Assembly (NCBI RefSeq): GCF_004123845.1
Contig: NZ_NBDP01000036.1
Coordinates: 124,001-188,000, forward strand
Length of the DNA stretch: 64,000 nucleotides
Source of the DNA: Allobosea sp. Tri-44
GTDB lineage: Bacteria > Pseudomonadota > Alphaproteobacteria > Rhizobiales > Beijerinckiaceae
Direction: 5' to 3'
Made by a program: the position numbers and the translations under genes. The notes under the pieces were generated by a model. It made no database searches and was not told the DNA's origin. It was given only the letters and a program-made list of their open reading frames with translations. Within the stretch, counting starts at the first letter, position 1. Every line of letters starts with the position of its first letter. This document shows positions 5,430-28,202 of this stretch, in pieces.

Positions 5430-5431
5430 GA

Positions 5432-8495: not shown

Positions 8496-8529
8496 CGCGC
8501 CTGAGTTTCGATCGCGCCGCTGGTGACGA

Positions 8530-8601: not shown

Positions 8602-8788
8602 CAACCAGGCGCCCCCGGCCGCACGATGTCCTGACGGCGGAGGGCACCGGCGATACGCAAATCTCGCATGCAGCCGATGAGGCAAGGTCCAGTCTGAGGC
8701 CTCGGGCCTGAAACCAGAAATGCGTTTCCCTGTTTTCAGGTTTAAGAAGAACTGCAAGCCGTCCGACGCGGCTTCGAGACGTTCTGGG

Positions 8789-10535: not shown

Positions 10536-10558
10536 ATGATTTCTGCGTTAACCATAAT

Positions 10559-10602
10559 TAGCTAAATTTGTATCATTAATTTTTTATCAATTGTATATTG
10601 AT
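10559..10602. promoter_or_regulatory. AT-rich control region with operator-like repeats, cargo operon
   Basis: This is the most AT-rich patch of the window. It holds TAGCTAAATTTGTAT (10559-10573) and the perfect palindrome ATCAAT-TGTAT-ATTGAT (10586-10602). Both have close copies upstream of tnsA: TAGCGTAATTTGTAT at 14095-14109 and ACTCAAT-TAATG-ATTGAGT at 14020-14038. Two different motifs shared between the two intergenic regions suggest common regulation of the cargo and transposition operons. Confidence 0.5.
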
Positions 10603-10786
10603 CTCGTTCGATGCGCTGTCATGGCCTCGGCGCGTCGATTGCGATCATCTGCAACGCAGTAATCATAGCTGGCAACCTTTAGGCCAACTCTCCGCAGTCC
10701 CCCAACAGCTGACTGGTTGTCCATGTTTCGCATGAAGCATGGCCCCCCGGGCGATTTGTCTTCGACGTAGCAATGGAGCCCTTTTC

Positions 10787-11014
10787 ATGGCCACCCAGAG
10801 GCGCTTCCGCTTGGCCTATCGACTATCTCCGCATACCGCGCTGGGGCGACGTCGGCGCGATGCCGGTCGAGCCAGAGCTCACCGGTTGGCAGTGCGGATA
10901 CGTACTGCAATTCCGCAACTTGGCGATGAGTATCTGACTGCCTTGTTGGATGAGGAGTTTGACGACCTCTCCTGCGAACCACGGCTCCTTGTGCAGTTAG
11001 CCAACCAACACTGA
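10787..11014 (+). CDS. possible small arginine-rich protein, unknown
   Basis: 75 aa if the ATG at 10787 is used; GGAG lies 6-9 nt upstream. The first half is arginine-rich (QRRFRLAYRL, then GRRRRDAGRARAHRL) and the end is acidic (GDEYLTALLDEEFDDL). No domain was recognised. It lies in the 586-bp gap between the XRE gene and the AAA protease gene and in the same direction. A long minus-strand open frame overlaps it, so it could be a chance ORF. Confidence 0.3.
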   Translation: MATQRRFRLAYRLSPHTALGRRRRDAGRARAHRLAVRIRTAIPQLGDEYLTALLDEEFDDLSCEPRLLVQLANQH

Positions 11015-11121
11015 GGGATCGGGCGCCCACCGCAGCGGCTCTGCGGCGGCGGCGTGCCGAACCCGCTCGGCGAATTGCATCCAAACAATCTTCGACCGGC
11101 TGACGCCCCAAGGGAGTCATC

Positions 11122-13236
11122 ATGCAGCGTAGAAAATCCCTCTCGGGAGCAATCAAGCGCACTCCAGCTCGTTCTGATCTGCTGGCGCGCGCTTACCTCG
11201 AAATCCTCGCCCGGGAGGCGGGAGCGAGGAGCAAGGCAATGCTTCGCGGTGAATATTCCGATGCGGCTTTGGAGCGCCTGATCGACGACCTCGAGGACGA
11301 CGCCCGCGATTTCGCCATCTCGCCTCTCCGGCCAGATCTGGCGGCCGTCGCGATCTTGATGGCGCGGGCGATTGAAGGGGAGCCTGGATTGGCACGCTGC
11401 ATTCGCCGTGACGCTCCAGTCGTGGTCGTGACCACCCATAGTCCCAGTCTCGTCGAGATGGCCAAGGAGGTCGCGCAGCTGTGCGTGCTTCCCTCGAACT
11501 CGCGAGTTTTGGAGATTGATTCGACGGCGTCGGTTGGGCCTCAGACGCGCGGGATTCTGGTGGTGCGTGACGGCACTGCGAAAGCCGATCGCCGGGATAA
11601 AGGCAATCGCGAGGTCGCCGCGGCGCTTCAGCATCGCATTCCCATTATGGGCATCGCGCCGGACCCTTTGCGGCACCTGCCTCAAGCGCTGACAAGGACG
11701 GCAGAGTTCAGACTTGCCCTGCCATCGCTCGATCAGGCTGCCATCGCTCTGGTGGTCGAGGCAGTGTCGGGATTTGCACCAACGCGTGCGATAGATCCCG
11801 ACCTACTGCGCCTTATCGACATCGACGATCTTCCTTTGGCTTTCCGGTTTGGTCGTCGTGGTGACGACTGCCTCTCCGCCATCGAGGACGTCGTGAGAAA
11901 GAGGGGTGAATACCTCTTCGAGGGCCCGTCGCTGGCAGAGCTTGCAGGCTACGGCGCTGCGAAGGAATGGGGGCTCCAACTGGCCGATGACTTGACGGAG
12001 TTCAAAGCCGGCCGCCTCAGCTGGGCTGACGTCGATCACAAGGGGCTCTTGCTTTCGGGCCCTCCGGGAACGGGCAAGACGCAGTTCGCTCGTGCCCTCG
12101 CAAAGACTGCTCAGGTTCCGCTGGTATCGACTTCAGTCGCGGAATGGAATTCGGCCTCGTACCTTTCCGGCACACTCCAGGCCATCCGTGACGCCTTCTC
12201 GCGAGCCCGTCGTCAGGCGCCGTGTATTCTCTTCATCGATGAGATGGACGGGATCTCGGACCGATCGAAGATCCGCGGCGACTACATCGAGTACTGGACG
12301 CAGATCGTGAACCTGTTGCTGGAGCAACTCGCCGGCATAGAGGAGCGAGCTGGCGTCGTCGTGATTGCCGCGACCAACCATTCCGACCGTATCGACCCCG
12401 CGGTAAAGCGAGCTGGTCGGCTCGATCGAGAGATCCAGATCGAAAAGCCTGATACGCGTGCACTTGCGGAGATATTCCGGTTTCACCTAGGCCCCGAGCT
12501 GTTGAAGGAGGCTGACCTCATTCCTGTGTCGCTGGCATCGCGCGGAGCTACCGGCGCGGATGTCGAGGCTATGGTTCGCCGTGCGAAGGGGGCTGCGAGG
12601 CGGGGCCGTCGCGCGCTCACGTTGGAGGATCTGGTCGCTGCCAGAGACGGGGACATCCCCGCTCTTCCTCCAGACTCTCGGTGGCGCATCGCGATCCACG
12701 AGGCTGGCCATGCTTTGGCCGCTCGCGAACTTCAGGCCGGAAAAGTGGGTGGGATCTCGATCCACCCGGCCGGTGGATTCGTCGAGTTCGAGAGCGATCT
12801 TTCCGGATCGGCGACGTACGACCGTCTCCAGCGGGAGATTGCCGTGCTGTTGGCCGGGCGGGCCGCGGAGCAGTTGATTCTCGGTGATGCCGGCGCCGGG
12901 GCTGGGATGAGCCGCGACTCTGACATCGGTCGTGCGACCGGCCTCGCGCTGCTGATCGAAACGCAGTGCGGCCTCGGGCACTCCGGGGGAGCGTATCTGG
13001 GTGACGTCAAGGACCTGGTTTACGCCCCGTCGGTGCACCTCGCGGTCAACTTGCAGCTGAAGGAGGCTGAGGCACGAGCGGCCGAGGCCTTGGCGCCCAA
13101 TCGGGAAACTCTATTGGCGTTAGCCCAGGCGCTCGACCGGCAGGGCTATCTCTCAGCAGCGGAGGTCGAAGCGCTCCTCCGCGGCAGGCACGAGCCTGAA
13201 GCAATCAATTCGTCAGAATTTGCGAGGTCCGCATGA
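11122..13236 (+). CDS. soluble FtsH-like AAA+ ATPase with M41 zinc metalloprotease domain (transposon cargo)
   Basis: 704 aa with GGGAG upstream of the ATG. Residues 1-290 are a domain I do not recognise and contain no membrane segment, unlike FtsH with its two N-terminal helices. The AAA+ module follows: Walker A GPPGTGKT at 313-320, Walker B LFIDEMDG near 370, ATNHSDRIDPAVKRAGRLDR as sensor and arginine-finger region. The protease domain has the zinc motif HEAGH at 526-530 and an acidic DSDIGRAT segment (about 599-605) where FtsH carries its third ligand. An energy-dependent cytoplasmic protease is expected; its substrates are unknown. It overlaps the next gene by ATGA. The location inside a Tn7-like element makes a role in defence or element maintenance possible. 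Confidence 0.85.
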   Translation: MQRRKSLSGAIKRTPARSDLLARAYLEILAREAGARSKAMLRGEYSDAALERLIDDLEDDARDFAISPLRPDLAAVAILMARAIEGEPGLARCIRRDAPVVVVTTHSPSLVEMAKEVAQLCVLPSNSRVLEIDSTASVGPQTRGILVVRDGTAKADRRDKGNREVAAALQHRIPIMGIAPDPLRHLPQALTRTAEFRLALPSLDQAAIALVVEAVSGFAPTRAIDPDLLRLIDIDDLPLAFRFGRRGDDCLSAIEDVVRKRGEYLFEGPSLAELAGYGAAKEWGLQLADDLTEFKAGRLSWADVDHKGLLLSGPPGTGKTQFARALAKTAQVPLVSTSVAEWNSASYLSGTLQAIRDAFSRARRQAPCILFIDEMDGISDRSKIRGDYIEYWTQIVNLLLEQLAGIEERAGVVVIAATNHSDRIDPAVKRAGRLDREIQIEKPDTRALAEIFRFHLGPELLKEADLIPVSLASRGATGADVEAMVRRAKGAARRGRRALTLEDLVAARDGDIPALPPDSRWRIAIHEAGHALAARELQAGKVGGISIHPAGGFVEFESDLSGSATYDRLQREIAVLLAGRAAEQLILGDAGAGAGMSRDSDIGRATGLALLIETQCGLGHSGGAYLGDVKDLVYAPSVHLAVNLQLKEAEARAAEALAPNRETLLALAQALDRQGYLSAAEVEALLRGRHEPEAINSSEFARSA

Positions 13237-13451
13237 CGCATCTCGACCAAGTTCCCCATCATGACCGACAGCCCGCGTCGGTGCCCGAAGTCGAGGCGCT
13301 TCTACTGAAGGCCACCCACGATCTTGCTGCGACGCTTGGTGTGGAGCCTCAACAGGCTCTCCGCGCCCTCGCGACGGTGGTTCAACGGCGCGCAGACTTC
13401 GAGCGGCTCCGGGGGGCGGCCAACGCAATCTCAGCTCGTCTCGCGCGCTAG
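13233..13451 (+). CDS. small helical protein of unknown function, coupled to AAA/M41 protease
   Basis: 72 aa. The ATG (13233-13235) overlaps the stop of the protease gene, so translation is probably coupled. The protein looks wholly helical: VEALLLKATHDLAATLGVEP then LRALATVVQRRADFERLRGA. Coupling suggests an adaptor or regulator of the protease, but no family was recognised and this is an inference from position only. Confidence 0.65.
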   Translation: MTHLDQVPHHDRQPASVPEVEALLLKATHDLAATLGVEPQQALRALATVVQRRADFERLRGAANAISARLAR

Positions 13452-13546
13452 CGCCCTTCGAATTTCCTCTCCTGAGAAAATGCTGCGCCTCCTCAACACA
13501 GGAGGCCATCGCGGCTGCTGGCCTAGCGACACCGGAGGATCGGCTC

Positions 13547-13885
13547 GTGCGTGAACTGGTAGAAAAAATCACAGCGGCGTCTGCAGACCTACGGCGACTA
13601 GAAAAAGGCTGGCTTCCCTCGGGAGCGGATCTCAGCAGCGCGGTAACCCTCGAGGGCTGGGTGATCGGCGTCGATCCACAAACCAATCAGACGGTCTTCT
13701 GGGGGCGATCGATCGGGCACCCCATCCTTGGCGATCGGTTGATCATGACCAGTCCCGTGCTGTGGGTTAGCAAGGACCGGACGATCGCGCGCACACTGAG
13801 CCGTTGGTATCGCTTGGGAAAGCCAGCGGAGCTCGCGCTCCATCCGTGCGGCTCTGATCCGGACGATCAAGAGCCAGTTGGCTGA
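13547..13885 (+). CDS. small conserved-looking protein, unknown function (DUF6634-like)
   Basis: 112 aa from a GTG preceded by a good CGGAGG site. A helical N-terminus (residues 1-25) is followed by LEGWVIGVDPQTNQTVFWG, then GHPILGDRLIMTSPVLWVS and TIARTLSRWYRLG. From memory the second half resembles a family of small rhizobial proteins annotated DUF6634, but this was not checked. It lies 95 nt after the 72-aa gene and completes the cargo operon. No catalytic motif is evident. Confidence 0.6.
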   Translation: MRELVEKITAASADLRRLEKGWLPSGADLSSAVTLEGWVIGVDPQTNQTVFWGRSIGHPILGDRLIMTSPVLWVSKDRTIARTLSRWYRLGKPAELALHPCGSDPDDQEPVG

Positions 13886-14019
13886 GCCGCGGTGCCGGTC
13901 CGGGAGGCAGAGTTCCGTCGCCGCATGATCGGAAGCTCCAAGCCATGCGCCAACTTCCGGATTGAAGGATTGCTTTAAGGATACGCGATCAAGTCCAGAT
14001 AGTGGTGCTTGGAGCGTTC

Positions 14020-14140
14020 ACTCAATTAATGATTGAGTCAGAATCGCTGTCGTACGCCTGTATGCACAAGAGCGGCGAGCGAGCGCACATTACCTAGCGT
14101 AATTTGTATTGTATCGTGCCTCTTAGAACAAAACGTTCTA
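14020..14140. promoter_or_regulatory. tnsA upstream control region with two palindromes
   Basis: The 350-bp gap before tnsA is AT-rich from about 13970. It has two perfect palindromes with the same 5-nt spacer: ACTCAAT-N5-ATTGAGT (14020-14038) and TAGAAC-N5-GTTCTA (14124-14140). Between them lies TAGCGTAATTTGTAT (14095-14109), which repeats a motif ahead of the cargo operon. These look like operators for the tns operon. Such regions in Tn7-like elements often also hold transposase sites, but I found no 21-22 bp array here. Confidence 0.5.
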
Positions 14141-14235
14141 GGAATAATCTGCAATTTCTCAATTGCGGCCACCAGAAATCTGCACGCGATCAGCGTGAAT
14201 CAGATCGAAAACTTATGGGTTTTCGGGGGGTAGAC

Positions 14236-14946
14236 ATGGAAGTACTAACAAGAGCGACGGCTGTCGACCCGTCGAAAGCAAGTCGGAACGTCGTCACCGG
14301 CTCGCGTGACAACTTCACGGGCTATTTTCCGTCACGGAAGAACGGGCGGCTGATCCAGTACGAGAGCCTGCTTGAGCAACGGATGATCCGGCTCATGGAG
14401 GCGGACAAGCATATCGTCGAATACACCGACCAGCCGAAGGCCAAGGAATGGCGTGACGGTTCCTACCGCACGCGGTGTTCCACCTTCGACTTCGAGTACA
14501 TTGCCGACGACGGGACGGTCACGATCGTCGAGGTGAAACCGTGGTCGCGTGTCCAGAAGAAGGGCTTACTTGAAGAGTTTGCGTTCGCGCGCTTCGAGCT
14601 CGGGAAGCAGGGCTACAATTTCGAGCTTTGGACCGACCGGGAACTCAATGCCGGCGTCCGGCTGGCGAATGCTGAGATTCTGTCGTCTTCCGACACCGCA
14701 TTCTCTTCCGACGAGCTCCTGATCCGTCTTCGGAATGCGATCTTCCACTTCGGTGACCGGGCGACGGTCGCTCAGCTGCGATACGCGCTGGATGGGGAAG
14801 CCCGAACCAACTTCGCGTGGTGGGGCATCGCCCGGCTTATCGCGCGCGGCGAATTCATCCTGTGCACGCCCGACGCGCCCCTCGACGACAACGCCATCGT
14901 TTCCGCCTTCCGCGCAAGCGACTCCCCGAAAGGAGCTGCCGGATGA
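14236..14946 (+). CDS. tnsA: Tn7-like transposon endonuclease TnsA
   Basis: 236 aa from the ATG at 14236, preceded by a GGGGGG tract; an in-frame ATG also exists at 14215. The first half is the TnsA endonuclease fold: E43 in QYESLLEQR, D85 in STFDFEYIADDG, and E99-V-K101 in TIVEVKPWS, the restriction-enzyme-like catalytic set. The C-terminal half is the helical TnsA domain. TnsA cuts the 5' ends of the element so that it moves by cut-and-paste rather than by replication. The stop overlaps the tnsB ATG. First gene of the tnsA-tnsB-tnsC-tniQ-tniQ operon. Confidence 0.88.
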   Translation: MEVLTRATAVDPSKASRNVVTGSRDNFTGYFPSRKNGRLIQYESLLEQRMIRLMEADKHIVEYTDQPKAKEWRDGSYRTRCSTFDFEYIADDGTVTIVEVKPWSRVQKKGLLEEFAFARFELGKQGYNFELWTDRELNAGVRLANAEILSSSDTAFSSDELLIRLRNAIFHFGDRATVAQLRYALDGEARTNFAWWGIARLIARGEFILCTPDAPLDDNAIVSAFRASDSPKGAAG

Positions 14947-17309
14947 ATGCGCCCTCTTTCAACCTCCACACCGGTGACGCCATTCGCGTTGGCGCTGACT
15001 GGTGGGAAGTCCTGCACCGATCCCGCAACGAGGTCGCTCTCCGTCTCAGCGGGACGTTCACGACGCGCACCCTTTCCAACGGCGAGCTCGTCGACGCCTA
15101 CTTCAAGCACGAGATTGAGATCCTCCGGAAAGCCCTGGGAGCCGGACTCCCCAAGGGCATCGATGAGATGATCGCCCGCACCTTCGAGACCATCCCTCGC
15201 CAGTGGCAGGAGGAGGCGCTTCGGCGGCTGGACTTCGTCGAGATCACCCATCGGCTATTCAAGCGGTTCCGCGGAAAGCCCGGTTGGGCCATGCGCCCGG
15301 GAAAAGGTGAAGGCTACGAGAAGGCGGCACTTGTTGCTGCCCACATGCGGCAGAAGCGGCAGGCTGATCGTCTTGGTATCCGTCGCTCGGAGGTCGGGAA
15401 GGAGACGGTGGGCGCGTCGACCCTCCGAGCCTGGTACACACGTTGGCGCAAGGCTGGCTACGCCCTGGGAGCCCTTGTGCCACTGCACGAGAAGAAGGGC
15501 GTCAGCACTCCGCGGATGGATGAGATCGTCGTGCGGATCATCGCCGACGTCGTGCGCAGCCGCTACATGACCCTGGAGCGTCTTCCGCTACGCATGGTCT
15601 ATCAGCTGATCTGCGCGGAACTGATCAAGAAGAACAACGAGCTCAAGCAAGCCGATCCATCCTTCGAGGTCCTGCCGCGGCCCAGCGAAATGGCAGTCCG
15701 GCGCTGGATCAAGGAGTATCTCACGCCGTACGAAATCACGCTCGCTCGTGAGGGCAAGCGCGTTGCCGACCACCGCTTCAAGCTCGCGAAGCCAGGCCCG
15801 ACCGCGATCCGGCCGCTCGAAGTGGTCGAAATCGACTCGACGCTTATCGATGTCCTGGTGATTTCACCGGGCGAGGCCAACCGGAACGCTCCGCTCAAAG
15901 AGCGCCGGACCGAGCGGGTGTGGCTCACCCTCGGCATTTGCCGCGCCACCCGCATGATTTTCGGTTGGGCATTCTCCCGCGACAAGCCGGATTGGTCTGC
16001 GATCATGGACCTGCTCCGGATGGGTGTGCAGCCCAAGGACCTGGAGGGCGCGGATCTCAAGACCGATTGGCCGGTCCTCGGCGTGCCAGAAGTTCTGGTC
16101 CTAGATAACGCCAAAGAGTTCCACTCGCATTCTATGCGTGCTGCCGCCGGGCAGTTGCTGATGGAGCTGCGATATACGCCCCGGCGCAAGCCTTGGCTGA
16201 AGGGCCGGGTCGAGCGGTTTTTCCGCGAGGTCAGCTCCGATTTCGTCGTCCCGATGCCGGGCCGCACGTTCAACAACGTCGTGAAAAAGGGCGACTACGA
16301 TTCCAAGGGGCTGGCGATCATGTCCCAGGAGAAGCTCGAAGAGCTCTTCAAGATCTGGGTCGTGGACATCTATCACAACCGTCCGCATGCGGGATTGCTC
16401 GGAAAAACGCCGCTCCAGGCGTGGGAAGACCTGTCGGGCTTCGGGGTGCGTGTCCCGCCGAAGGCATCGGACCTCGATTCTCTGATCGGGCTCGTCGTCC
16501 CAAGGACAATCCAGCGGCGCGGCATCGAGTTCATGGGGCTGATCTACAGCTCGCCGGACCTCATCCAGCTGAAGCGCCGCGGCGGACATCTCGGTCGGCA
16601 GTACCTGGTCAAAATCGATCCTCTCGATCTGACCGTGATCCTGGTGCTGAATGAGACGGGCAAGGAGTGGGTGCCGATCCCCTGCGTCAAGGCCGCCGAG
16701 GTCCAGCACATCAACCTGGCAGTCTGGAAGGAAGTCGTTGCGATCGCTCGCGCGAAAACAGCAGCCGGCCAGCGCGTCGCCTGGGAAACTCTGCACGAGA
16801 CCCGAGTTCGTATCGAAGAAGAGCTCACTGCCTTGGCAGGCACGATGTCCGCCGAGGACCGCCAGCGTCACAAGCTTCTCCGCCGGCAGTCGAAGAAGGA
16901 CTACGAAGCGATCCTTGCAGACGTCGAGACCGTGAACTTCTCGGTCGCCGTTGTGCCCGGCGCCCCCGTGCAATTTGACGATATTCCGGAGGACCTCGAG
17001 GTCATCGAGATGGTCCCCCTGAAGCCGGTCAGCGAGGCCGGGGGCGTCCCGCTGGAGGAGCGCGATCCCGAGGCTCATCGCGAGGAGACGCTGCGGGAGA
17101 CCACGGCGATTAGCGAGGACATCAAACGCCGCGAGCGCGAAATGCGCGAAGCGGTGGCGTTGACCGAAGAGCATCTCAACTCGGCTGGGAAGCTGCCGCC
17201 TCCTGCAGCGGCGCTGATTGGAAAGCCTGCAGACAGGGCTGCGCCGCTCCATCCCGTGGTGGCGGACTACGACGATGTCTCAAATTTCATGATGTCGGAA
17301 GACGATTGA
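14943..17309 (+). CDS. tnsB: Tn7-like transposase TnsB (DDE, rve integrase fold)
   Basis: 788 aa from the ATG overlapping tnsA. The catalytic triad is visible: D298 in VVEIDSTLIDV, D388 in EVLVLDNAKEFHS and E424 in GRVERFFREVS. There are 35 residues between the last two, the canonical DD(35)E arrangement. Upstream residues (about 60-270) form helical DNA-binding domains. The Mu-type C-terminal beta-barrel follows near 530-640, and an acidic helical tail of about 100 residues would contact TnsC. TnsB binds the element ends and carries out 3' cleavage and strand transfer. Length is slightly above Tn7 TnsB. An open frame extends upstream to 14817 inside tnsA and was excluded. Confidence 0.92.
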   Translation: MNAPSFNLHTGDAIRVGADWWEVLHRSRNEVALRLSGTFTTRTLSNGELVDAYFKHEIEILRKALGAGLPKGIDEMIARTFETIPRQWQEEALRRLDFVEITHRLFKRFRGKPGWAMRPGKGEGYEKAALVAAHMRQKRQADRLGIRRSEVGKETVGASTLRAWYTRWRKAGYALGALVPLHEKKGVSTPRMDEIVVRIIADVVRSRYMTLERLPLRMVYQLICAELIKKNNELKQADPSFEVLPRPSEMAVRRWIKEYLTPYEITLAREGKRVADHRFKLAKPGPTAIRPLEVVEIDSTLIDVLVISPGEANRNAPLKERRTERVWLTLGICRATRMIFGWAFSRDKPDWSAIMDLLRMGVQPKDLEGADLKTDWPVLGVPEVLVLDNAKEFHSHSMRAAAGQLLMELRYTPRRKPWLKGRVERFFREVSSDFVVPMPGRTFNNVVKKGDYDSKGLAIMSQEKLEELFKIWVVDIYHNRPHAGLLGKTPLQAWEDLSGFGVRVPPKASDLDSLIGLVVPRTIQRRGIEFMGLIYSSPDLIQLKRRGGHLGRQYLVKIDPLDLTVILVLNETGKEWVPIPCVKAAEVQHINLAVWKEVVAIARAKTAAGQRVAWETLHETRVRIEEELTALAGTMSAEDRQRHKLLRRQSKKDYEAILADVETVNFSVAVVPGAPVQFDDIPEDLEVIEMVPLKPVSEAGGVPLEERDPEAHREETLRETTAISEDIKRREREMREAVALTEEHLNSAGKLPPPAAALIGKPADRAAPLHPVVADYDDVSNFMMSEDD

Positions 17310-17321
17310 GGGGGATTCCAG

Positions 17322-17957
17322 ATGAACGTGGCTGTCAAAATCAACCCGGACGATGCTTATTCCAAGGCTCCGGATTTCGAGGAGCGAGCCAAGAAGGGCG
17401 GTCGTCACGCTCAGATCGCAGCGCTGGTCAGGGGTAGGCACGAGTCGAGCCCTCGCGAACGAGCCACCGAGTGGTTTCGCCGTATGCGCATGATCGAAGT
17501 TCCAACCGGGACTTGGGCCCAAGCGCGTGATTGTTTCGATCAGATCATCGCGGGGCTCGGCGAGGAAGATGAGGGCAAGGCATTCGCAGTCGACGGCCCC
17601 ACCGGAGCTGGCAAGACTCACATCTTGAGGCGCCTTAGCCGGCATAAGAGTCTTGAACAGATCGAGACCGAAGATGGCCCGCTGAGACCCCTGCTGAAGG
17701 TGGAAATCCCTGCGGCCTGCGATCTGCGAAAGCTGGGCGTGCGCATGCTTCGTCGCATGGGTGTTGGAGTGGCACTGGCCGAAGACGCCGGTGAAGGCGA
17801 CGCCGTAATCACGAAAGGGCTCCGCCTCGACCCCGAAGATGTTTGGGACGTCGTCCGGTCGCAGATCATGGCGCAGGGCGTCGTGGTCGTGATCATAGAT
17901 GAGATCAATAACGTGTTCTCAAACCCAAGAGTCATGAGCGGCTCCAGATCGCCATGA
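17322..17957 (+). CDS. tnsC: TnsC/TniB-type AAA+ regulator, N-terminal part (split gene)
   Basis: 211 aa as translated in frame. It has Walker A GPTGAGKT (residues 92-99) and Walker B VVVVIIDEINN (D193, E194), then runs out after a short aberrant tail to a TGA at 17955-17957. The sensor-1 strand and the rest of the ATPase are encoded in the -1 frame directly after (to 18457). The join is clean: slipping at A_AAC_CCA (17921-17927) would give NVFSNPKSHERLQIAMKFKE and a 378-aa product, a normal TniB/TnsC size. TnsC links target selection by TniQ to activation of TnsA/TnsB. It follows tnsB by 12 nt with a GGGGG ribosome-binding tract. Confidence 0.82.
   Translation: MNVAVKINPDDAYSKAPDFEERAKKGGRHAQIAALVRGRHESSPRERATEWFRRMRMIEVPTGTWAQARDCFDQIIAGLGEEDEGKAFAVDGPTGAGKTHILRRLSRHKSLEQIETEDGPLRPLLKVEIPAACDLRKLGVRMLRRMGVGVALAEDAGEGDAVITKGLRLDPEDVWDVVRSQIMAQGVVVVIIDEINNVFSNPRVMSGSRSP
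17921..17927 (+). promoter_or_regulatory. possible programmed -1 frameshift site in tnsC
   Basis: The heptamer A_AAC_CCA fits the X_XXY_YYZ slippery form exactly in the reading frame of the N-terminal tnsC part, and the -1 shift lands in the frame that encodes the rest of the ATPase. Y is C here, which slips less well than A or T in known cases, and I see no strong downstream stem-loop. A simple mutation, an assembly error, or reinitiation at the ATGA overlap (17954-17957) are alternatives. Confidence 0.4.
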
Positions 17958-18457
17958 AGTTCAAGGAGATGCTAGCCGACAAGGAGTGGCCGGTCTCTCT
18001 GGTTTTGGCAGGGGTCAAAGCAGCTAAGTTCGTTGAGGAATACAACGAACTGCGCCGGCGCACTCCGATAATCGAGGTTCGCCGCCTCGACAATGCTCGT
18101 CGTCAGCATATGGCGATTCTGCTGCAGAACTTCGAAAAGAAGCTAGGCTTCGCGGAGAAGCTTGATCTCCACCTCGGTGACTATCCGGAGCGGATGATTC
18201 ATGCGACCGACGGAGAGGTCGGCCGCGTTGCCGATCTCTTCAAGCTTGCTGGGGTCGGTCCCTGGATGGCCGGCCGGTCAATGACCGTGCAGGACTTGGC
18301 TGCGGCTGCGGAGGCGATCGGGCTCTGCGACGTGAAGTCCAATCCTTTCCGTGTGGCCGACCTGTCGAAGCTGAAAAAGAAGAAAAAGTCCCTTGAGGAC
18401 TATGATCGAACGCTCCTGCGGGGGAACCAGCGTCCTTCGGTCGAGGATAGAGAGTGA
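17954..18457 (+). CDS. tnsC: TnsC/TniB-type AAA+ regulator, C-terminal part (split gene)
   Basis: 167 aa if initiated at the ATG that overlaps the upstream TGA (ATGA). It starts inside what should be the helix after Walker B and contains the sensor-1 strand WPVSLVLAGV, then the TniB-like RRTPIIEVRRLDN and a helical lid. The last part ends in a lysine-rich LKKKKKSLEDY. Alone it has no nucleotide-binding loop, so it can only act as a separate subunit or as the C-terminal half of a frameshift product. The stop overlaps the GTG start of the first tniQ gene. Confidence 0.78.
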   Translation: MKFKEMLADKEWPVSLVLAGVKAAKFVEEYNELRRRTPIIEVRRLDNARRQHMAILLQNFEKKLGFAEKLDLHLGDYPERMIHATDGEVGRVADLFKLAGVGPWMAGRSMTVQDLAAAAEAIGLCDVKSNPFRVADLSKLKKKKKSLEDYDRTLLRGNQRPSVEDRE

Positions 18458-20343
18458 GGCTCGCAACCCTCCCGGTTCGCCCGATTCGTCATTCGGGTGA
18501 ACCGGCCTACGCTTATTGCGCGAGGATAGGGGCGACGAACGGCCTGAAGACGCTAACCGACTGCGGTTACGTCTTTGGCTTCCGGTCATTCGAGATCATC
18601 CAGGGCAAAGGCCTAGAATGCGTTGCGGAACTGGCGGGCCAGGATATCGCTGCCTTGTCGTTCGACACAGCGAAAACCGCTCCTGACAGCGTTGAGCTGC
18701 GCGGCGAGCGACTGTTCAGAAGGCAGTGGAGCATCGCTTCACATTGCAAGGTTTGCCCGGGATGCGTTCGTCAGGACGTGGCGACGCCTGAGCAGTTTCG
18801 CCGGCGCTTTCCGAGAGCGTGGCGCCGGACCTTCTGGGACCTAAGAGCCATCGATGTATGCTTGGAGCATTCAGCGCGACTCATCGACGCCTGTGAAGCA
18901 TGTGGCGAAGCTCTGTCCTATGAGAACGCCTCGGTCGGCCGATGCCCGCTGGGGCACGACATAGCGCGGTTCATCTGTGAAGCGGTTCCGGAAGGCGAGA
19001 CGCTCGGAGCTCGGTATATCATGGGCAGGCTCGGCTTCGCGGACCGGGTAGCCTCTGCACTTCTCGATGACCTCGAACTGGGTCGCGCGATCACGACGAT
19101 GGAGGCCGTGGGACGAGCCGCCATGGGGATAGAGCGGTTTGCCGAGGAGGCTTCAAACGCTTCGTCCGGTGCGATCCTCTCTGCAGGCTTCAATGCCATG
19201 CAGGGACTGTCTGAGCGGCTGCCGGTGATCCTAGACGGACTCGTTGCTCTGTCCGGGCAGCGCCCCTGGCGATGGGGCTTGCTGAAGGCTTATGGCGAAT
19301 TCTACGAGTGGGTGATGGACGAGCCGCAATCTGCGGTCGCCCATGCGTTGCGTGCTGGAATTGTGGAGCACGCGCAGGCTTCGGACCAGGTCACCTTCAA
19401 AGCCAATACCAACGTCGCCGGCGTGGTGATGGCGACCTCGAAATATGTTCCGCTGGCTGAAGCGGCGGCGGAATGCGGCATGGGCACTGAGCGCTTCCGT
19501 CGTTTCTGTGAGGCGCAGGGCGTTCTCCCGAGCGCGAGGCTTCGCCAGGGGGAGAGTGCACGGATCTCCCGAGCGTTCGTGGATCAGTTCAAGGACATGG
19601 TCTCCGAGTGCTTCAATGCCACCGAGCTCGAAATCGCGCTTGGAGTGTCGTCTGCAGCCGCCAGGGCCATCGTCGATGCTGGCCTTGTCGACCCGATCCT
19701 CCCGGCTGAGCAGCGCCGTGAGCTCAAATTCAACATCGCGCTCTTTTCCGTCCAATCGGTTCGCAGGCTGATTGACGACCTCGCGGCAAGGATCGAACTG
19801 AGCGGAGAAAATCTCACCGCTCTGCCAAAAGCCGCTGCGACGGTGCGATTTGCTACGAGCAAGGCCGTCGAACTCGTCCTGTCGGGGCGGCTGTCTATCA
19901 GAGGCTACGACGGCAGCGCGCCAGGGCTTCAGGCTTTTCTGATCGACCGCTCCGAACTCTCGAAGGCAATCGGCAAGCAGCTATCCGATGAATACGTGCC
20001 GATCACGGTTGCGGCGGACCAGATTGGCATCAAGGGCGAGACCGCTCGGGCTTTGCGAGATCACAACCTACTCGACACAACCCGCCATCGAAACAGCCTT
20101 CTCGTGCGGCGGGACACCCTCCAGAAATTCGTCGACGACCACGTGACGTCGCAAAGCCTCGCAGCCAAGGGCGGCTTCGGCTCGGCAAGCGCCGCGACAA
20201 AGCAACTCAAAAAGGTCGGCCTCAGTCCGATCTTGCCTGTCGAGCTCGCTCGGCAAGCCATTTTCCGTCGGTCTGATGCCGAGGCGGCTCTGGATCGATG
20301 GCATCGACTCGAATCTGGCGCACCACGCGCTACCGAACACTGA
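18454..20343 (+). CDS. tniQ: TniQ/TnsD-family target-site selector 1 with tandem winged-helix units
   Basis: 629 aa from the GTG overlapping tnsC. Residues 1-180 are the TniQ domain: PIRHSGEPAYAYCARI at the start, then a zinc-binding set of CKVCPGC (about 99), CLEH (about 136), CEACGE (about 147) and CPLGHD. From about residue 331 onward come some five repeats of 50-60 residues, each an HTH followed by a wing-like strand pair, such as VPITVAADQIGIKGETARAL. TniQ proteins bridge target DNA and TnsC. Proteins with added DNA-binding domains (TnsD type) select a fixed site. The target cannot be read from the sequence. Confidence 0.85.
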   Translation: MRLATLPVRPIRHSGEPAYAYCARIGATNGLKTLTDCGYVFGFRSFEIIQGKGLECVAELAGQDIAALSFDTAKTAPDSVELRGERLFRRQWSIASHCKVCPGCVRQDVATPEQFRRRFPRAWRRTFWDLRAIDVCLEHSARLIDACEACGEALSYENASVGRCPLGHDIARFICEAVPEGETLGARYIMGRLGFADRVASALLDDLELGRAITTMEAVGRAAMGIERFAEEASNASSGAILSAGFNAMQGLSERLPVILDGLVALSGQRPWRWGLLKAYGEFYEWVMDEPQSAVAHALRAGIVEHAQASDQVTFKANTNVAGVVMATSKYVPLAEAAAECGMGTERFRRFCEAQGVLPSARLRQGESARISRAFVDQFKDMVSECFNATELEIALGVSSAAARAIVDAGLVDPILPAEQRRELKFNIALFSVQSVRRLIDDLAARIELSGENLTALPKAAATVRFATSKAVELVLSGRLSIRGYDGSAPGLQAFLIDRSELSKAIGKQLSDEYVPITVAADQIGIKGETARALRDHNLLDTTRHRNSLLVRRDTLQKFVDDHVTSQSLAAKGGFGSASAATKQLKKVGLSPILPVELARQAIFRRSDAEAALDRWHRLESGAPRATEH

Positions 20344-20364
20344 CTGGCCGATGGGATTGTGAGC

Positions 20365-23301
20365 ATGAGGATCAACTACGTTGCCGTTTATCCCGCTCGT
20401 CAGGATGGGGAACCTGCATACGCCCATTTGATGCGTGTGGCTCAAGCCAACGGCGTCAAGCGCGTTGCGACTCTGGCGACAAACCTCGGTCTGGAATCAT
20501 ATCGCCTGCATATGCGGTCGTCTCTGGAGACGATCGCGCACGTCGGCCGCTCGGATACGGTCAGCCTCGCGCATGACACGGCCACTGATGATCGCGACAT
20601 CGTCACCCTTCGCGGAGAAACGCTCAGACGCGGTACGCAGTGGGCCTCGCTTGGCATCCGGCGTGCTTGTCCGGCGTGCTACGCCGAGGACAAGAGGGCA
20701 GTCGAACCCTATAAGCGCCGGCTGCCCCGGGCGTGGCACCGGACCTGGTGGGACGTGACCGCGGTCACGGCTTGTCCGGTCCACTATTGCCGGCTGATCT
20801 CCCGCTGCCCGCAGTGCTCCGAGCCATTCGATCCGGGTCGCGGGTCGATCGATCGATGCCCGAATAATCATGACATCAGCCGTTTCGAATGCGTTCCGGC
20901 CGACGCTCAAGAGGTTCGGTCGTCAGCGTATATCGTCGGGCGGCTGGGCGGGGGACCGCGCATCAATGTGCCCGCTCTCGACGACATGCCTCTGCACTGG
21001 GCGATCGAGACCATGGAGGTGATCGGCTACGCAGCAACAGAACGTAGCTTCGTAAAGCAGCACGGCGATAGCCGAGGAGCGTCCAGCCAGTCGTGCGGCA
21101 TTGGGCTGTCGGTCGTGGAGGATCTCGGTATCGCTGCTCCCAAGCTCGTTGCGGGGTTGAGGGAGGGGGCTCATACGGTCCGGGGCTCCGGCAAGCAGAA
21201 GGCTTACGGTGGTTTCGACACGTGGGCGTTCGGACTTCCCGACGGCGCACTAAAGCGCCACCTGACCAAGGCCATCGAACGGGATATGGCAGCCGCTGGT
21301 ATCGGCAGGGCCATTCGCATCGTGCCAGTGGAAGCCTCCGGGATCAGTCTCTCCAAGGCGGCGCAGATGATCGGGACAAATGTCGACTGGGTTCGACGTG
21401 TGGCTGTCGAAAAAGGGTTTATCGAGCCGCGGAGGCGCTGGAAGGGAGCGCCAATCACTTTATCAGAGCAGACTGTTGAGATTCTCCGGCACGAGAAGGA
21501 CGCTTGGCTGAATCTCGAAGAGACCGCGGCTCGGTTGCGCGTTGATGTTTACGCCATGCGGCGATTGCTGGACGCGGGGCACTTGGACGGAATCACCTCG
21601 GAAAACCCCCGGTTCGAAGCCACCTCCGGCGCGCACCAGTGGCGGATTTCGCCGGAAACAATCGACGGCTTCATTGCCAAGCTGGCGGGCACGCTAGACG
21701 AGAGCGTGAGTCCATCTTTGTCGTTAATCGAGGCCAGCTTCGCCGCATCCAAGAGTCTGACTCGCGTTGTGGGCTTGATCCTGCGGGGGCATCTTTGTGT
21801 ATGCGCCATCGACGAGGCCGCCGAAGGCCTGGCTCGCTTGAAGGTCCGCGTCGTCGACATAAAGACGGCGTTGCAGAAAGATCGCGGGGATATGCGCACC
21901 TTCCTCGAGGCCAGCGCTGAGATCGGGCTTACGCCGGCCGCGGCGAAAGAGGTCCGCGATGCTGGCTACCTCCCTTTCACAAAGACGGGGCGCCGGTATG
22001 CCGTGTCGAAACAGGACATCGATGAGTTCAACGACCTCTACACGACATCCAGCAAGCTTGCAGAGAAGTTCGGTCTGCTGGGCTGGCAATCGGCGGATCA
22101 GCTGCTGAGAACCATAGGTGTCAAAGCCGTCGGCGACCGGGATTTCGCAAAGCGCTTCATCTACCACCGTAAGGAAACCGAGGAAGCAATTCGGGGATGG
22201 TCCCAGTCCGAAACCAAGGCCGAGTCGTATTCCGCCGGCGGATGGCTGACACCAAAGCATGCCCTCAATCAGCTTCAGGTTCCTTACATCCTGGGGATGG
22301 AGCTCATAGCGGCCGGTATTCTGCCGAGTGAAGATAACAGTCGCGGGCGGCGCCTCAGCGAGGAAGCTGTCAGCGAGTTTCGTGCCCGCTACCTCACCAC
22401 TGTCGAAGCCGGAGAGCTCCTCGGCTGTACCGCCCAAAAGGCAATCAACCTGCTCCGCGAGCAGAAGCTGGTGGCTGGTCCACCGGACTACTCGGGGTAT
22501 TTGTACGAGCGGAAATCCGCGTTGGAGGCGATCGAACGCCTGAACTCTGTGGTGGTAGAGGAGCCGCCGCGCTTCGAGTTCGACCCCGACGAGCACATCA
22601 CTGCGTCCCAGATCACGGAACTCGTTGGCATCAATCGCGACACGATCACCTTTCTGGAAAAGAAGGGACTTCTCTCGTCCGCCCGACAGGGCGGCCAGTT
22701 CTATTTTTCGGCGACCCAACTCGCCGCCTTCCGTGAGCGATATCTAGGCGGAAGGGACGTCGTTGAGGCGCTGGCGGCGAACACCAAAGACCCTGGGATG
22801 AACCCAGTTTGGTTCTCGAAGCGCCTCGGGCTGAAGTCGGCCTTCGGCCCTCCCGAGATCAAGGCCTACATTTTCAACCGCGACGAGTTCGTGGAGGCAG
22901 TCCGCCAGTACGAAGTCGAGCGGCAAGCGGACGAAGATCGACAGGCGAAAATCGCAGAAATCCCCGTCCTCCTATCTCGGGATGTAGGAGCGAGGCTCAG
23001 AATCGTCTCAAAATTGATGGCCAATCTGGTTAGAGCTGGCATCCTTCGAGGCGAAAAGCGCGGCCTTTCCGTCGTCTTCACCCTTGAGGAAGTCGAGCGG
23101 TTTGAAAAAACCTACATCCTGGCTACGGAAGCCTCGGAGCACATCGGCAAAAAGGGCTCCATGACCGCGGTTGCCGCTCTGCAGCGGCTGGGCGTGCCTC
23201 CGATCGCCCCGTATTCAGAGCTTGGAGGCTACATTTACAATCGGGAGCAGGCTCTGCGTGCCCTTGATGGGCTCACACACAATCTTTGGTCAGCGGCCTG
23301 A
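20365..23301 (+). CDS. tniQ: TniQ/TnsD-family target-site selector 2 with about eleven tandem winged-helix units
   Basis: 978 aa from the ATG at 20365; a GTG at 20359 is also possible. The N-terminal TniQ domain parallels its neighbour: DGEPAYAHLMRVAQANG, CPACYAED, CPVHY, CPQCSE and CPNNHD. From about residue 326 to the end I count roughly eleven repeats of 50-60 residues, each an HTH (for example ITASQITELVGINRDTITFL or RDVGARLRIVSKLMANLV), a GLL/AGIL turn, a wing with aromatic-rich strands, and a closing helix. This resembles MerR/excisionase-type winged helices in tandem. It is almost twice the length of Tn7 TnsD (about 508 aa). A protein of this type could read a long, fixed DNA site. Confidence 0.85.
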   Translation: MRINYVAVYPARQDGEPAYAHLMRVAQANGVKRVATLATNLGLESYRLHMRSSLETIAHVGRSDTVSLAHDTATDDRDIVTLRGETLRRGTQWASLGIRRACPACYAEDKRAVEPYKRRLPRAWHRTWWDVTAVTACPVHYCRLISRCPQCSEPFDPGRGSIDRCPNNHDISRFECVPADAQEVRSSAYIVGRLGGGPRINVPALDDMPLHWAIETMEVIGYAATERSFVKQHGDSRGASSQSCGIGLSVVEDLGIAAPKLVAGLREGAHTVRGSGKQKAYGGFDTWAFGLPDGALKRHLTKAIERDMAAAGIGRAIRIVPVEASGISLSKAAQMIGTNVDWVRRVAVEKGFIEPRRRWKGAPITLSEQTVEILRHEKDAWLNLEETAARLRVDVYAMRRLLDAGHLDGITSENPRFEATSGAHQWRISPETIDGFIAKLAGTLDESVSPSLSLIEASFAASKSLTRVVGLILRGHLCVCAIDEAAEGLARLKVRVVDIKTALQKDRGDMRTFLEASAEIGLTPAAAKEVRDAGYLPFTKTGRRYAVSKQDIDEFNDLYTTSSKLAEKFGLLGWQSADQLLRTIGVKAVGDRDFAKRFIYHRKETEEAIRGWSQSETKAESYSAGGWLTPKHALNQLQVPYILGMELIAAGILPSEDNSRGRRLSEEAVSEFRARYLTTVEAGELLGCTAQKAINLLREQKLVAGPPDYSGYLYERKSALEAIERLNSVVVEEPPRFEFDPDEHITASQITELVGINRDTITFLEKKGLLSSARQGGQFYFSATQLAAFRERYLGGRDVVEALAANTKDPGMNPVWFSKRLGLKSAFGPPEIKAYIFNRDEFVEAVRQYEVERQADEDRQAKIAEIPVLLSRDVGARLRIVSKLMANLVRAGILRGEKRGLSVVFTLEEVERFEKTYILATEASEHIGKKGSMTAVAALQRLGVPPIAPYSELGGYIYNREQALRALDGLTHNLWSAA

Positions 23302-23727
23302 GACGTAAGTCCCGAGCAATGCGGAATCCCAACTGCCCGGATCCGGATTGTCACGGCGCCTTCTTGGTACGCTTCTGCTTTCGAGCGTGTGCGCGTAGTT
23401 CGCGCACCCGTTGCTTACTGGCGTCGGCCAGTTGGGCATGATTGCGTTCACCCTCCTGGGTGAGCGCAACCGACGCCTGCCTTTTCAGAGCCGGTTTCCT
23501 CTGTTCCGGCGATTGTGACGGCCGCTCGGTCAATTCTCGTTCCAATCAATAGGGCGGTCTGAGCTGCAACTACCGTGGCCTCATGTCAGTGAGACACACC
23601 GCTGACGATGCCGGGAGGCATCGTCAGCGAGCTCAAGCCACGAACTGATCAGGTCACGCCCGGGTCGGCCCAGTCAGCTCCCACATCTGCTCGATACTCG
23701 CGCCGCCTCACTAGCGGCCCCAACGAC
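23302..23727. other. 426-bp intergenic stretch after tniQ2
   Basis: No convincing gene. A minus-strand frame (23351-23545) would need a TTG start and encodes a lysine- and arginine-rich 64-aa chain without a recognised domain. The only clear structure is the 13-bp hairpin at 23600-23629. Confidence 0.5.
23600..23629. terminator. perfect 13-bp hairpin between tniQ2 and the transposon end
   Basis: CGCTGACGATGCC (23600-23612), loop GGGA and the exact reverse complement (23617-23629). No T-run follows on either strand, so a factor-independent terminator is uncertain. It may end transcripts entering from tniQ2 or gyrB, or serve the element in another way. Confidence 0.4.
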
Positions 23728-23798
23728 CTGAGTCGATGATCTACGTCATTTGAGTCCGGATACCTGGCCAGAGAGTCAGGCTTTAGGGTGCCCCTACA
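23728..23798 (-). mobile_element. probable right-hand terminal end of the Tn7-like element
   Basis: Read on the minus strand from 23798, the sequence begins TGTAGGGGCACCCTAAAG, which resembles the known Tn7 end (TGTGGGCGGACAATAAAG) in its TGT, GGG and TAAAG positions. GACTC occurs three times on that strand, at 23777-23773, 23756-23752 and 23734-23730, spaced 21 and 22 bp, as for transposase-binding sites in Tn7. The end lies 12 bp beyond the gyrB stop codon. The flank AGCGG (23799-23803) would be the 5-bp target duplication, but no matching copy was found at a left end. Confidence 0.6.
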
Positions 23799-23810
23799 AG
23801 CGGCGCGGTC

Positions 23811-26312
<2,502 letters not shown>

Positions 26313-26363
26313 TCAGGATGGCTTTTTCACATGCGCACGCACGCGTACGCGAGAGTGGCGGAT

Positions 26364-28202
26364 TTAGCCAGAGAATGTCGCGATCGCATCCAGGAAAACC
26401 TCGCCGTACTGGGCGAGCTTGCGTTCGCCGACGCCTTCGATAGCCCGCATCTCTTCGAGGCCGAGCGGGCGCTCGCGCGCCATCGCAATGAGCGTCCGGT
26501 CGGTGAAGATGATGTAGGCGGCGACGCCTTCCTCGCGGGCGATGCTCAGCCTGAGTTGGCGCAGGTGCTCGAACAGGGCGGCGATGTCGCCGTCGAGTCC
26601 GTCGGCGCGTGCCGCCTCGCGCTGGCCGCGGCGCGAGCGCCGTTCGGCAAGCGGGTCGACGCGCAGCGCGATCGGCTCGCGGCCGAACAGGATGTCCTCG
26701 CCCTTCGCCGTCAGGCAGAAGCCGCCATGCTCGACGCTGGCCTCGGCAAGCGCACCGGCGGCGAAGAGCTTTCGCGTCAGCGCCATCCAGGCGCCCTTGG
26801 ACTTGTCTGTGCCGACGCCGAAGGTCTTCAACCCGTCATGGTTCTGGCGGCGGATCGTATCGGTAGTCGTGCCGGTCAGGATGTCGGCGAGGTGGCCGGC
26901 GCCGAAGCGCTGGCCCGACCGGATGACGGCCGAGAGCAGCTTGCGCGCGTCGAGCGTGGCATCGGTGAGTTCGGGAGTAGCGGGTCCGCAGAGGTCGCAG
27001 CGGAACGGCGCATCGCCATGCCGACAGGGCGTGACGGCCTCGCCGAAATAGGACAGCAGGGCCGAGCGCCGGCAGAGCGCCGATTCGCACAGGTCGATCA
27101 TCGCATTGAGGCGCTTGTGCTCGATGCGCCGGCGTTCCTCGTCGATCTGCTTCTCGTCGATCTGGCGGCGGCGCAACGCCATGTCGTCGACGCCGTAGAG
27201 GGTCAGCGTATCCGCGGGCAGGCCGTCGCGGCCGGCACGGCCGATCTCCTGGTAGTAGCTCTCGATCGAGCCTGGCATGTCGGCATGGACGACGAAGCGG
27301 ACATCCGGCTTGTTGATGCCCATGCCGAAGGCGATAGTGGCGCAGACGACGACGCCGTCCTCCTGCAGGAAGATGTCCTGGTTGCGGTTGCGCTCCGCCT
27401 GCTCCAGCCCGGCATGATAGGCATAGGCCTTCCAGCCCTTCTCGCTCAGGCCTGCAGCCAACCGCTCGGTGCGCCCGCGCGAGGAGCAGTAGACGATGCC
27501 CGAGCCGCCGCGATGGACCTTCAGGAAATCGTCGATCTGCCGGCGCGGCTGCTCCTTCGGCGCGAAGGCGAGCTTCAGGTTAGGCCGGTCGAAGGAATGG
27601 ATGACGAGATGCGGCGGCGCCGGGAACAGTTGCTGGGCGATGTCGTCGCGCGTCTGGCGGTCGGCCGTCGCCGTCAGTGCCGTCACCGGGACGTCGCCGA
27701 GCGCCTCGCGCACCTTCGAGAGCAGCCGGTACTCCGGGCGGAAGTCGTGGCCCCATTGCGAGACGCAATGCGCCTCGTCGATGGCGAGGCGAGTTACGCC
27801 CAGGCGGCGCAGGCGGGCGACCAGCCCCTCTCCTGCCAGCCGCTCGGGCGAGACGAAGAGCAGTCTGAGCTCGCCGGCGTTGAGCTTCGTCCATGCTTCG
27901 CTCGCCTCAGCTTCGCTGTTCATCGAGTTGAGCGAGGCGGCGGAGACGCCGGCGCGCACCAGCTGGCCGACCTGGTCGCGCATCAGGGCGATCAGCGGCG
28001 AGACCACCAGCGTCAACCCGCCGGCGACCAGAGCCGGCAGCTGGTAGCACATCGATTTGCCCGAGCCGGTCGGCATCACCGCGAAGACATCGCGGCCGGC
28101 GAGCGCAGCCTCGATCACCTCCCATTGCCCGGGGCGGAAATCATCATAGCCGAAGACCGACTTCAGGATCGCGCGGGCTTCTGATTCGCGGGGCGACGAC
28201 AT
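26364..28202 (-). CDS. recQ: ATP-dependent DNA helicase RecQ
   Basis: 612 aa. Helicase motifs in order: FGYDDFRPGQWEVIEAALAG (motif 0), Walker A MPTGSGKSMCYQ, DEAH in LAIDEAHCVSQWGHDFRPEY, TATADRQT, and QEIGRAGRDGLPA in motif VI. The RQC zinc site follows (cysteines in CESALCRRSALLSYFGE and CDLCGP). The HRDC domain is at the C-terminus (RPLGLEEMRAIEGVGERK). It unwinds DNA 3' to 5' in recombination and fork repair. Length is typical. Confidence 0.95.
   Translation of the reverse strand: MSSPRESEARAILKSVFGYDDFRPGQWEVIEAALAGRDVFAVMPTGSGKSMCYQLPALVAGGLTLVVSPLIALMRDQVGQLVRAGVSAASLNSMNSEAEASEAWTKLNAGELRLLFVSPERLAGEGLVARLRRLGVTRLAIDEAHCVSQWGHDFRPEYRLLSKVREALGDVPVTALTATADRQTRDDIAQQLFPAPPHLVIHSFDRPNLKLAFAPKEQPRRQIDDFLKVHRGGSGIVYCSSRGRTERLAAGLSEKGWKAYAYHAGLEQAERNRNQDIFLQEDGVVVCATIAFGMGINKPDVRFVVHADMPGSIESYYQEIGRAGRDGLPADTLTLYGVDDMALRRRQIDEKQIDEERRRIEHKRLNAMIDLCESALCRRSALLSYFGEAVTPCRHGDAPFRCDLCGPATPELTDATLDARKLLSAVIRSGQRFGAGHLADILTGTTTDTIRRQNHDGLKTFGVGTDKSKGAWMALTRKLFAAGALAEASVEHGGFCLTAKGEDILFGREPIALRVDPLAERRSRRGQREAARADGLDGDIAALFEHLRQLRLSIAREEGVAAYIIFTDRTLIAMARERPLGLEEMRAIEGVGERKLAQYGEVFLDAIATFSG

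Follow-up and report, generated by a model that had tools for sequence, protein, structure and literature searches.

An eleven-unit winged-helix array in a TniQ protein beside gyrB of Allobosea sp. Tri-44

How long an array of DNA-binding units can the target selector of a Tn7-like element carry, and what might such an array read? The question is raised by a 64,000-nucleotide stretch of DNA from Allobosea sp. Tri-44 (contig NZ_NBDP01000036.1, positions 124,001 to 188,000; here called the window, and its genome G000), where the gene tniQ2 encodes a TniQ-family protein of 978 amino acids (aa), TniQ2, next to gyrB. The tail of TniQ2 is built of eleven winged-helix units, namely a three-unit start and four copies of a two-unit AB block of 111–124 residues. 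Every block is under selective constraint, and the right end of the element that carries tniQ2 is found at a short, repeated distance behind gyrB.

The selector of Tn7 itself, TnsD, has a 36-bp binding site at the end of glmS, and insertion takes place about 20 bp behind the glmS stop codon and about 25 bp from the TnsD binding site (PMC2918618). Deletions at the C-terminus of TnsD abolish binding, and its residues 1–309 hold TnsC (PMC2918618). Targets named for TnsD proteins are parE, glmS and tRNA genes (PMC11406308). The C-terminal region of TnsD-like proteins of type I-B, I-B2 and I-D CRISPR-associated transposons (CASTs) is described as folding into multiple helix-turn-helix (HTH) domains (PMC10293859).

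Units and blocks in the TniQ2 tail

TniQ2 is a member of the TniQ family, with a match to PF06527 at residues 10–144 (42.3 bits; cut-off 27). The tail is matched by HTH_17 at 69.6 bits (cut-off 27), and the NCBIfam excisionase model TIGR01764 matches the protein at 44 bits, also over its cut-off. Together with the modelled fold and a structural match to BldC, these profile matches place the tail units among the MerR/excisionase winged helices. The units, delimited by eye, start at residues 326, 380, 450, 510, 560, 626, 677, 744, 794, 868 and 918 (U1–U11) and are 50–74 residues long, rather than the 50–60 given in an earlier reading made from the sequence alone (the sequence-only reading). That reading, which had proposed about eleven tandem winged-helix units from about residue 326 to the end, is otherwise borne out by the profile models and the AlphaFold2 model described below. 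It had overlooked that the true period of the array is a pair of units. Class A units end in F-x3-Y and class B units carry [FY]-[ILV]-[YF]-x-R; when residues 321–978 were scanned, F-x3-[YH] occurred only at residues 555, 672, 789 and 913, and [FY][ILV][YF]-x-R only at residues 598, 712, 835 and 956.

The repeat was measured against shuffled sequences. B units (U5, U7, U9 and U11) resemble one another with z of 4.7–7.4, A units (U4, U6, U8 and U10) more weakly with z of 1.6–4.6, and pairs across the two classes give z of −1.0 to 1.8. Whole AB blocks compared with one another reach z of 3.7–10.6. As controls, out-of-phase B+A blocks were also alike in register (z 3.7–6.9), and A+B against B+A blocks without shared units gave z of 2.4–4.8. 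The single AB block of TniQ1, the product of the neighbouring gene tniQ1, is most similar to block 1 of TniQ2 (z 16.1), followed by block 4 (6.8) and block 3 (3.1). In leave-one-out tests with the A and B classes kept separate, 10 of the 11 units beat at least 994 of 1000 shuffles; U3 is unsupported by sequence, 152–307 of 1000 shuffles being equally good. With one undivided class, a weaker test, six of the 11 units beat all 500 shuffles, and the number of shuffles that did as well was 121 for U3, 37 for U1, 13 for U7, 7 for U10 and 2 for U5. Unit borders and classes had been fixed by eye or from the unit-similarity scores before these tests, and therefore the shuffles control for composition and not for that choice.

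Profile models of U1–U5 were trained on 22 family members only; 24 relatives were aligned, and a protein without a TniQ core (from genome G1066) and a relic (from G443) were left out of the training. Run on TniQ2, the models return exactly eleven units in the order U1-U2-U3-(U4-U5)x4, so that U6–U11 are called U4-U5-U4-U5-U4-U5 by models that never saw them. Shuffled tails gave 7 matches in 620 (ten shuffles of each of 62 tails).

An AlphaFold2 model of residues 322–978 built from 43 sequences has a mean predicted local distance difference test score (pLDDT) of 82.8 and a predicted template modelling score (pTM) of 0.51, the latter too low to predict how the units are arranged or what path the array follows. 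A reading of the DSSP line of the model suggests that all 11 units, including U3, start with a short strand and a pair of helices and continue with another strand and a helix that closes the unit. The A units of the four AB blocks have a two-stranded wing; in the B units a long loop replaces the first strand of the wing. The tail, whose structure prediction the sequence-only reading had proposed as a check, is thus modelled as an elevenfold winged-helix pattern and not as one single fold. Single-sequence AlphaFold2 prediction of the whole of TniQ2 was uninformative (mean pLDDT 37.7).

Single units were superposed by VIA-align on BldC (Z 7.9; 52 residues, 1.9 Å), Xis (Z 6.8; 51 residues, 1.9 Å), RdfS (Z 6.7; 68 residues, but 6.8 Å) and residues 337–400 of the CAST TniQ 7u5e (Z 6.4; 56 residues, 1.9 Å). 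Values of Z below 8 lie within the common-fold range, and the matches therefore indicate a winged helix, not a relationship; the rows are mostly of U8 and U10–U11, so that the absence of other families from them is uninformative. Foldseek searches with the long model gave weak and unspecific top matches (UFL1 and others, template modelling scores of 0.07–0.14) and were clearer for single units only. When the PDB was searched by sequence, the best matches were TniQ cores (E 0.023 for TniQ2, 0.0011 for TniQ1), with nothing in the TniQ2 tail worth reading. BldC, RdfS and Xis share the fold of a single TniQ2 unit, but they are separate small proteins that oligomerise, whereas in TniQ2 a single chain joins the units, which have become different from one another.

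One other genome, G023, holds a complete TniQ2, with 85% identical residues. Between the two genes the ratio of non-synonymous to synonymous substitution rates (dN/dS) is 0.06 in the core, 0.11 in U1–U5 and 0.11, 0.11 and 0.09 in the three extra blocks, at a dS of 0.7–1.2 across the regions and near 0.9 overall. With dN/dS at about 0.1, every block is held by selection, and mere decay of the extra blocks was set aside on the same values.

Array length across the family

The unit models were applied to 66 distinct TniQ proteins (core match at E ≤ 1e-6, among the fetched loci). Exactly U1-U2-U3-U4-U5 was found in 35 of the 66, TniQ1 included, and 17 of these lie outside the training set. These five-unit proteins, of about 580–670 aa, share with TniQ2 the core and the order U1–U5 but are without the three extra AB blocks; in TniQ1 the lengths of the five units are nearly equal to those in TniQ2. 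Eleven units occur in two proteins (window and G023) and nine in one, from G445 (831 aa). The 772-aa TniQ of G442 has six units, the only such case, or about seven when an A unit added by other models is counted. The remaining 27, many of them shorter or more distant, have nought to four. Forms of five, about seven, nine and eleven units mean that array length varies in steps of a whole AB block. Counted from the start of the core, five proteins are shorter than 400 aa, eight fall in the range 400–570, 42 in 570–670, six in 670–800 and one in 800–900, and four have at least 900 aa.

TniQ2 is complete in two of 67 genomes of the genus, those already named, and samples drawn from the order and from the family, 397 genomes each, yielded no further complete copy. 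G441, placed in the same genus, is identical over 4001 bases to a plasmid of Bosea sp. F3-2; Bosea is an alphaproteobacterial genus. The G1066 protein has 550 aa and carries AB blocks. Scans of IMG/VR gave no relative, and scans of GTDB contigs a single distant one, in a Sphingomonas metagenome-assembled genome. Among plasmids, eight records had TniQs, all of them distant and all with a coverage below 80%.

In a 45-protein tree, whose midpoint root serves the drawing alone, the TniQ1 and TniQ2 proteins of the window and G023 fall together (99/93), the G445 protein joins a five-unit one from G355 (99/80), and the G442 protein sits on a long branch at a fork that the tree does not resolve. It is therefore probable that arrays of more than five units evolved, or were retained, on more than one occasion. 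When blocks were compared with a view to the order of their gain, the nearest to the last block of G445 was the last one of TniQ2 (z 18–19), and the nearest to the first block of G442 was the second of G445 (z 21–22). This looks like either exchange or an old expansion. The nine-unit gene of G445 (L037:5936-8431) is solitary: 20 kb around it gave no match to tnsA, tnsB or tnsC.

The four proteins of at least 900 aa are the two eleven-unit ones and two others, of 1020 aa in G458 (L143:7217-10276) and of 970 aa in G070 (L202:5179-8088). These two others are like TniQ2 in length, in the TniQ core and in having several HTH matches, but their tails differ, matching HTH_33 and HTH_32 (in G458 also HTH_23), and the U1–U5 models match each only once. 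Long multi-HTH tails of TniQ proteins thus seem to have arisen from different HTH families.

The element and its site behind gyrB

Genes like tnsA, tnsB and tnsC, together with tniQ1, lie directly upstream of tniQ2 (Table 1). The stretch 14104–23301 has the adjoining tnsA, tnsB, tnsC, tniQ order of Tn7-like elements, with TnsA scoring below its cut-off and tnsC broken.

Table 1. Features of the tniQ2 locus, with positions in the window
Feature	Position	Strand	Basis or remark
tnsA-like endonuclease gene	14104..14946	+	NF033179, 49 bits, below cut-off 110
tnsB-like transposase gene	14817..17309	+	Mu-transpos_C over cut-off, integrase-core matches; true start probably inside the open reading frame (ORF)
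tnsC (TniB-like ATPase)	17322..18457	+	two overlapping ORFs, 17322–17957 and 17954–18457
tniQ1, 629 aa, five units	18454..20343	+	groups with TniQ2 in the tree
tniQ2, target selector, 978 aa, whole gene	20365..23301	+	ORF and profile matches
TniQ core, residues 1–325 (TniQ domain 10–144)	20365..21339	+	Pfam, family alignment
U1 (A-like), residues 326–379	21340..21501	+	leave-one-out, profile models, AlphaFold2 model
U2 (A-like), residues 380–449	21502..21711	+	leave-one-out, profile models, AlphaFold2 model
U3, residues 450–509	21712..21891	+	common to the family; winged helix by model only
AB block 1 (U4+U5), residues 510–625	21892..22239	+	common to TniQ1 (z 16)
AB block 2 (U6+U7), residues 626–743	22240..22593	+	extra
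AB block 3 (U8+U9), residues 744–867	22594..22965	+	extra
AB block 4 (U10+U11), residues 868–978	22966..23298	+	extra
Right end of element, TGTAGGGGCACCC...	23727..23798	-	three GACTC-cored repeats
gyrB, presumed attachment gene	23811..26243	-	

The three repeats at the right end are likely to be TnsB sites. When the 67 genomes of the genus were searched with the 3' region of gyrB, 65 matches were obtained; all were strong except two, at E 4e-4 and 9e-4, which leaves 63. The junction sequence was read in 32 of these 63 genomes, and the other 31 are known only by the position at which the alignment stops. Five of the 32 have the same right end past the gyrB stop codon, at 12 bp in the window, 14 bp in G443, 11 bp in G026, 13 bp in G023 and 17 bp in G438, so that a fixed short distance of 11–17 bp behind a conserved gene, as expected of a TnsD-like selector, is found in all five. 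In the 31 unread genomes the alignment stops near the gyrB stop codon, except in G456, which has no copy of the right end in 20 kb at 4 mismatches. G434 keeps a 49-bp piece 16 bp behind gyrB, and the G443 relic retains only residues 848–978 of TniQ2, beside gyrB, in the 20 kb around.

In G442, one of the 32 genomes with a junction read, another end is found 14 bp behind gyrB, namely TGTTATTTCACAG, with repeats of TGACTC. This end belongs to a second Tn7-like element (L036, L088–L089; G442:C1 about 10404–27700) whose tns genes are reversed relative to gyrB and beyond which lie remnants of a TniQ2 element. With these two element types and the repeated ends, the 3' end of gyrB is a repeatedly used site. 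Target selection at this site is likely, because the same end recurs 11–17 bp past the stop codon and the different element of G442 has come to the same place. The idea that unit number is set by the gyrB target is ruled out by G442, with about seven units at the same site.

The stretch found behind gyrB in four of 29 loci, including that of the closest relative, G447, matches the window's own contig at about 12.8–14.5 kb, which is 133 kb from the right end. A single tnsABC set was found in the 188 kb searched, and the 133 kb behind gyrB are either a large island or a rearranged stretch. They extend over G000:C2 about 14480–147798, the window's positions 1–23798 forming the right part, in which CT_A_B, CT_C_D and LamB/YcsF genes and a branched-chain amino acid ABC transporter were seen. 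The gene at 11122–13236 (+) encodes an AAA+ protein that is FtsH-like and has a peptidase domain of the M41 type; the PADLOC IetA defence models match its AAA part (100 bits), which falls far below the NCBIfam anti-phage ATPase cut-off. An open frame of 1367 aa at 24081–28184 (+), antisense to gyrB and recQ, is probably a by-product of high G+C and not a gene.

What the long array may do

On balance it is considered probable, though far from certain, that TniQ2 is an attachment-site selector whose array grips the 3' end of gyrB while TnsAB inserts the element 11–17 bp past the stop codon. By analogy with TnsD, the TniQ core (residues 1–325) would hold the TnsC ATPase. The eleven-unit MerR/excisionase-type array would bind DNA, its ligand being the 3' end of gyrB and its bearer TniQ2 rather than TniQ1, and the TnsAB transposase would then join the element to the site. 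The array would have grown from the common five-unit form by the gain of whole AB blocks in the TniQ2 line, rather than by their loss in relatives, and the extra blocks would probably lengthen or strengthen the contact with DNA. Protomers of BldC are arranged head-to-tail along DNA and take up 9 bp each (PMC5859096). At 9 bp per unit, simple arithmetic gives about 100 bp for eleven units, or about 54 bp if only the six A-type units are counted. A long target is conceivable, since the last 120 bp of gyrB are on average 90–98% identical to those of the window per 20 bp (32 sequences). The sequence-only reading had supposed that, if each unit reads a few bases, a very long target could be recognised. 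What has held up is that a TniQ selector encoded beside gyrB carries a genuine tandem winged-helix array of unusual length and that the element ends 12 bp past the stop; a very long footprint is no more than possible. A stricter version, in which the forms with 5, about 7, 9 and 11 units make a one-chain ladder, each AB block adds a recognised stretch and the eleven-unit form reads 50–100 bp of gyrB, is put forward only tentatively and is rather doubtful.

A number of observations weigh against the selector reading or its long footprint. PF15978 (TnsD) has no match in TniQ2 (Pfam, E ≤ 0.1), and for this reason the protein is not filed as TnsD proper. The net charge of the tail is 0, the third lowest per length among 45 relatives (median +2.4 per 100 residues; G442 +7.1), while the G023 orthologue has net +8 (+1.2 per 100). 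Between the window and G023 copies, 16 of the 135 recognition-helix positions differ, and 92 of the 518 others in the tail; the helices are thus not significantly more conserved (Fisher p 0.12). The two lowest A-A scores (1.6 and 1.7) do not exceed the best A-B score and, as A-B pairs reach 1.8, are not distinct on their own; block 2 (U6–U7) shows no resemblance to the TniQ1 block (z −0.7). The path of the array is not predicted, as noted above. Nor is the element whole. The tnsC frame is broken near 17.92 kb in the window, by either a mutation or an assembly error, whereas in G023 tnsC is intact as one ORF of 378 aa; in 40 kb around the G023 copy, in turn, neither tnsA nor any part of tnsB before residue 394 was found. 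Both near-complete elements thus look damaged. For a left end, no second match to the right end was found in the window at 3 mismatches, none that convinces in 124 kb upstream at 5 mismatches, and no other cluster of three GACTC within the window. The distant junction in G000 does not look like a clean transposon end, and a 5-bp target-site duplication was not found. Separately, two inverted copies of a set of ORFs flank a piece of tnsB in G023 (L008, about 2900–8911, reverse complement); by eye they look IS21-like.

The G442 element, whose TniQ has about seven units, lies just as far from gyrB and speaks against the long footprint, as about seven units seem to suffice at this site. Only the first units may then contact gyrB, as in relatives with five, U6–U11 serving as a ruler, bending or wrapping DNA without reading it, or docking TniQ1 or TnsC. 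This explanation, possible but not favoured, would also suit the uncharged tail and the five-unit form being the commonest, and there are precedents in the distortion of DNA by BldC (PMC5859096) and the superhelical filaments formed by RdfS (PMC11963761). However, the model shows the winged-helix pattern retained in the A and B blocks, purifying selection on them is strong, and the part of gyrB that is read by the G442 element may be another one.

Slightly less likely still is a division of labour in which the five-unit TniQ1 selects gyrB and TniQ2 another target, a second chromosomal site or plasmids, in a two-pathway life like that of other Tn7-like elements. Tandem tniQ/tnsD genes are common, with 1,048 loci (PMC10293859), two TniQ proteins usually mean two pathways (PMC11406308), and TniQ1 and TniQ2 group together in the tree. 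Little counts against it: no other insertion site of the element was seen, though none was searched for, and the end of TniQ2 that the G443 relic keeps beside gyrB is explained by the position of tniQ2 in the element alone. The broken tnsC of the window, the failure to find tnsA and the first part of tnsB in G023, and the mere fragments left in G443 and G442 would agree with the long array being a relic that decays within a dead element and no longer has a function. This appears improbable, as dN/dS is about 0.1 over the whole of tniQ2 at a dS near 0.9 and neither genome has a stop within the 978 codons; the low ratio and the intact frames therefore indicate long constraint, even with recent copies dying.

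Taken as a selector, TniQ2 resembles the TnsD proteins of Tn7 and CASTs in its TniQ-type N-terminal core, its long multi-HTH C-terminus and an insertion just downstream of a conserved gene. It is unlike Tn7 TnsD (507 aa, 36 bp of glmS) in its eleven units, in the order of three units plus AB pairs, in the absence of PF15978 and in the gyrB site. parE and gyrB are paralogues. The parE-targeting TnsD of some type I-F3 CASTs (PMC11406308) is like TniQ2 in that its site is the gene of a type II topoisomerase B subunit; it differs in using parE and not gyrB, and is likened here by description, not by sequence. The kind of protein is already known, because multi-HTH C-termini of TnsD-like proteins have been described (PMC10293859). 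What had been put forward as a possibly unusual target-reading architecture therefore differs in the length of the array and its two-unit period, and not in having a multi-HTH tail; TniQ2 is an extreme variant. None of gyrB, the AB period and eleven units is mentioned in the passages of PMC10293859 and PMC11406308 used here, and the string 'gyr' is absent from the main text of PMC10293859 and PMC8649781. Among the open-access papers listed for TniQ with gyrB or DNA gyrase, no title or opening of an abstract reports attachment at gyrB; in PMC12452197, which also holds TniQ and Tn7-like, gyrB serves for phylogeny.

Selectors of the Tn7-like kind show how, with no guide RNA, a protein can direct kilobases of DNA to a single safe site, and the findings point to the 3' end of gyrB as an attachment site of two different elements. 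The series of 5, about 7, 9 and 11 units offers a way to ask how the length of such a protein maps onto the length of its target, and the AB-block family could supply modular readers of DNA.

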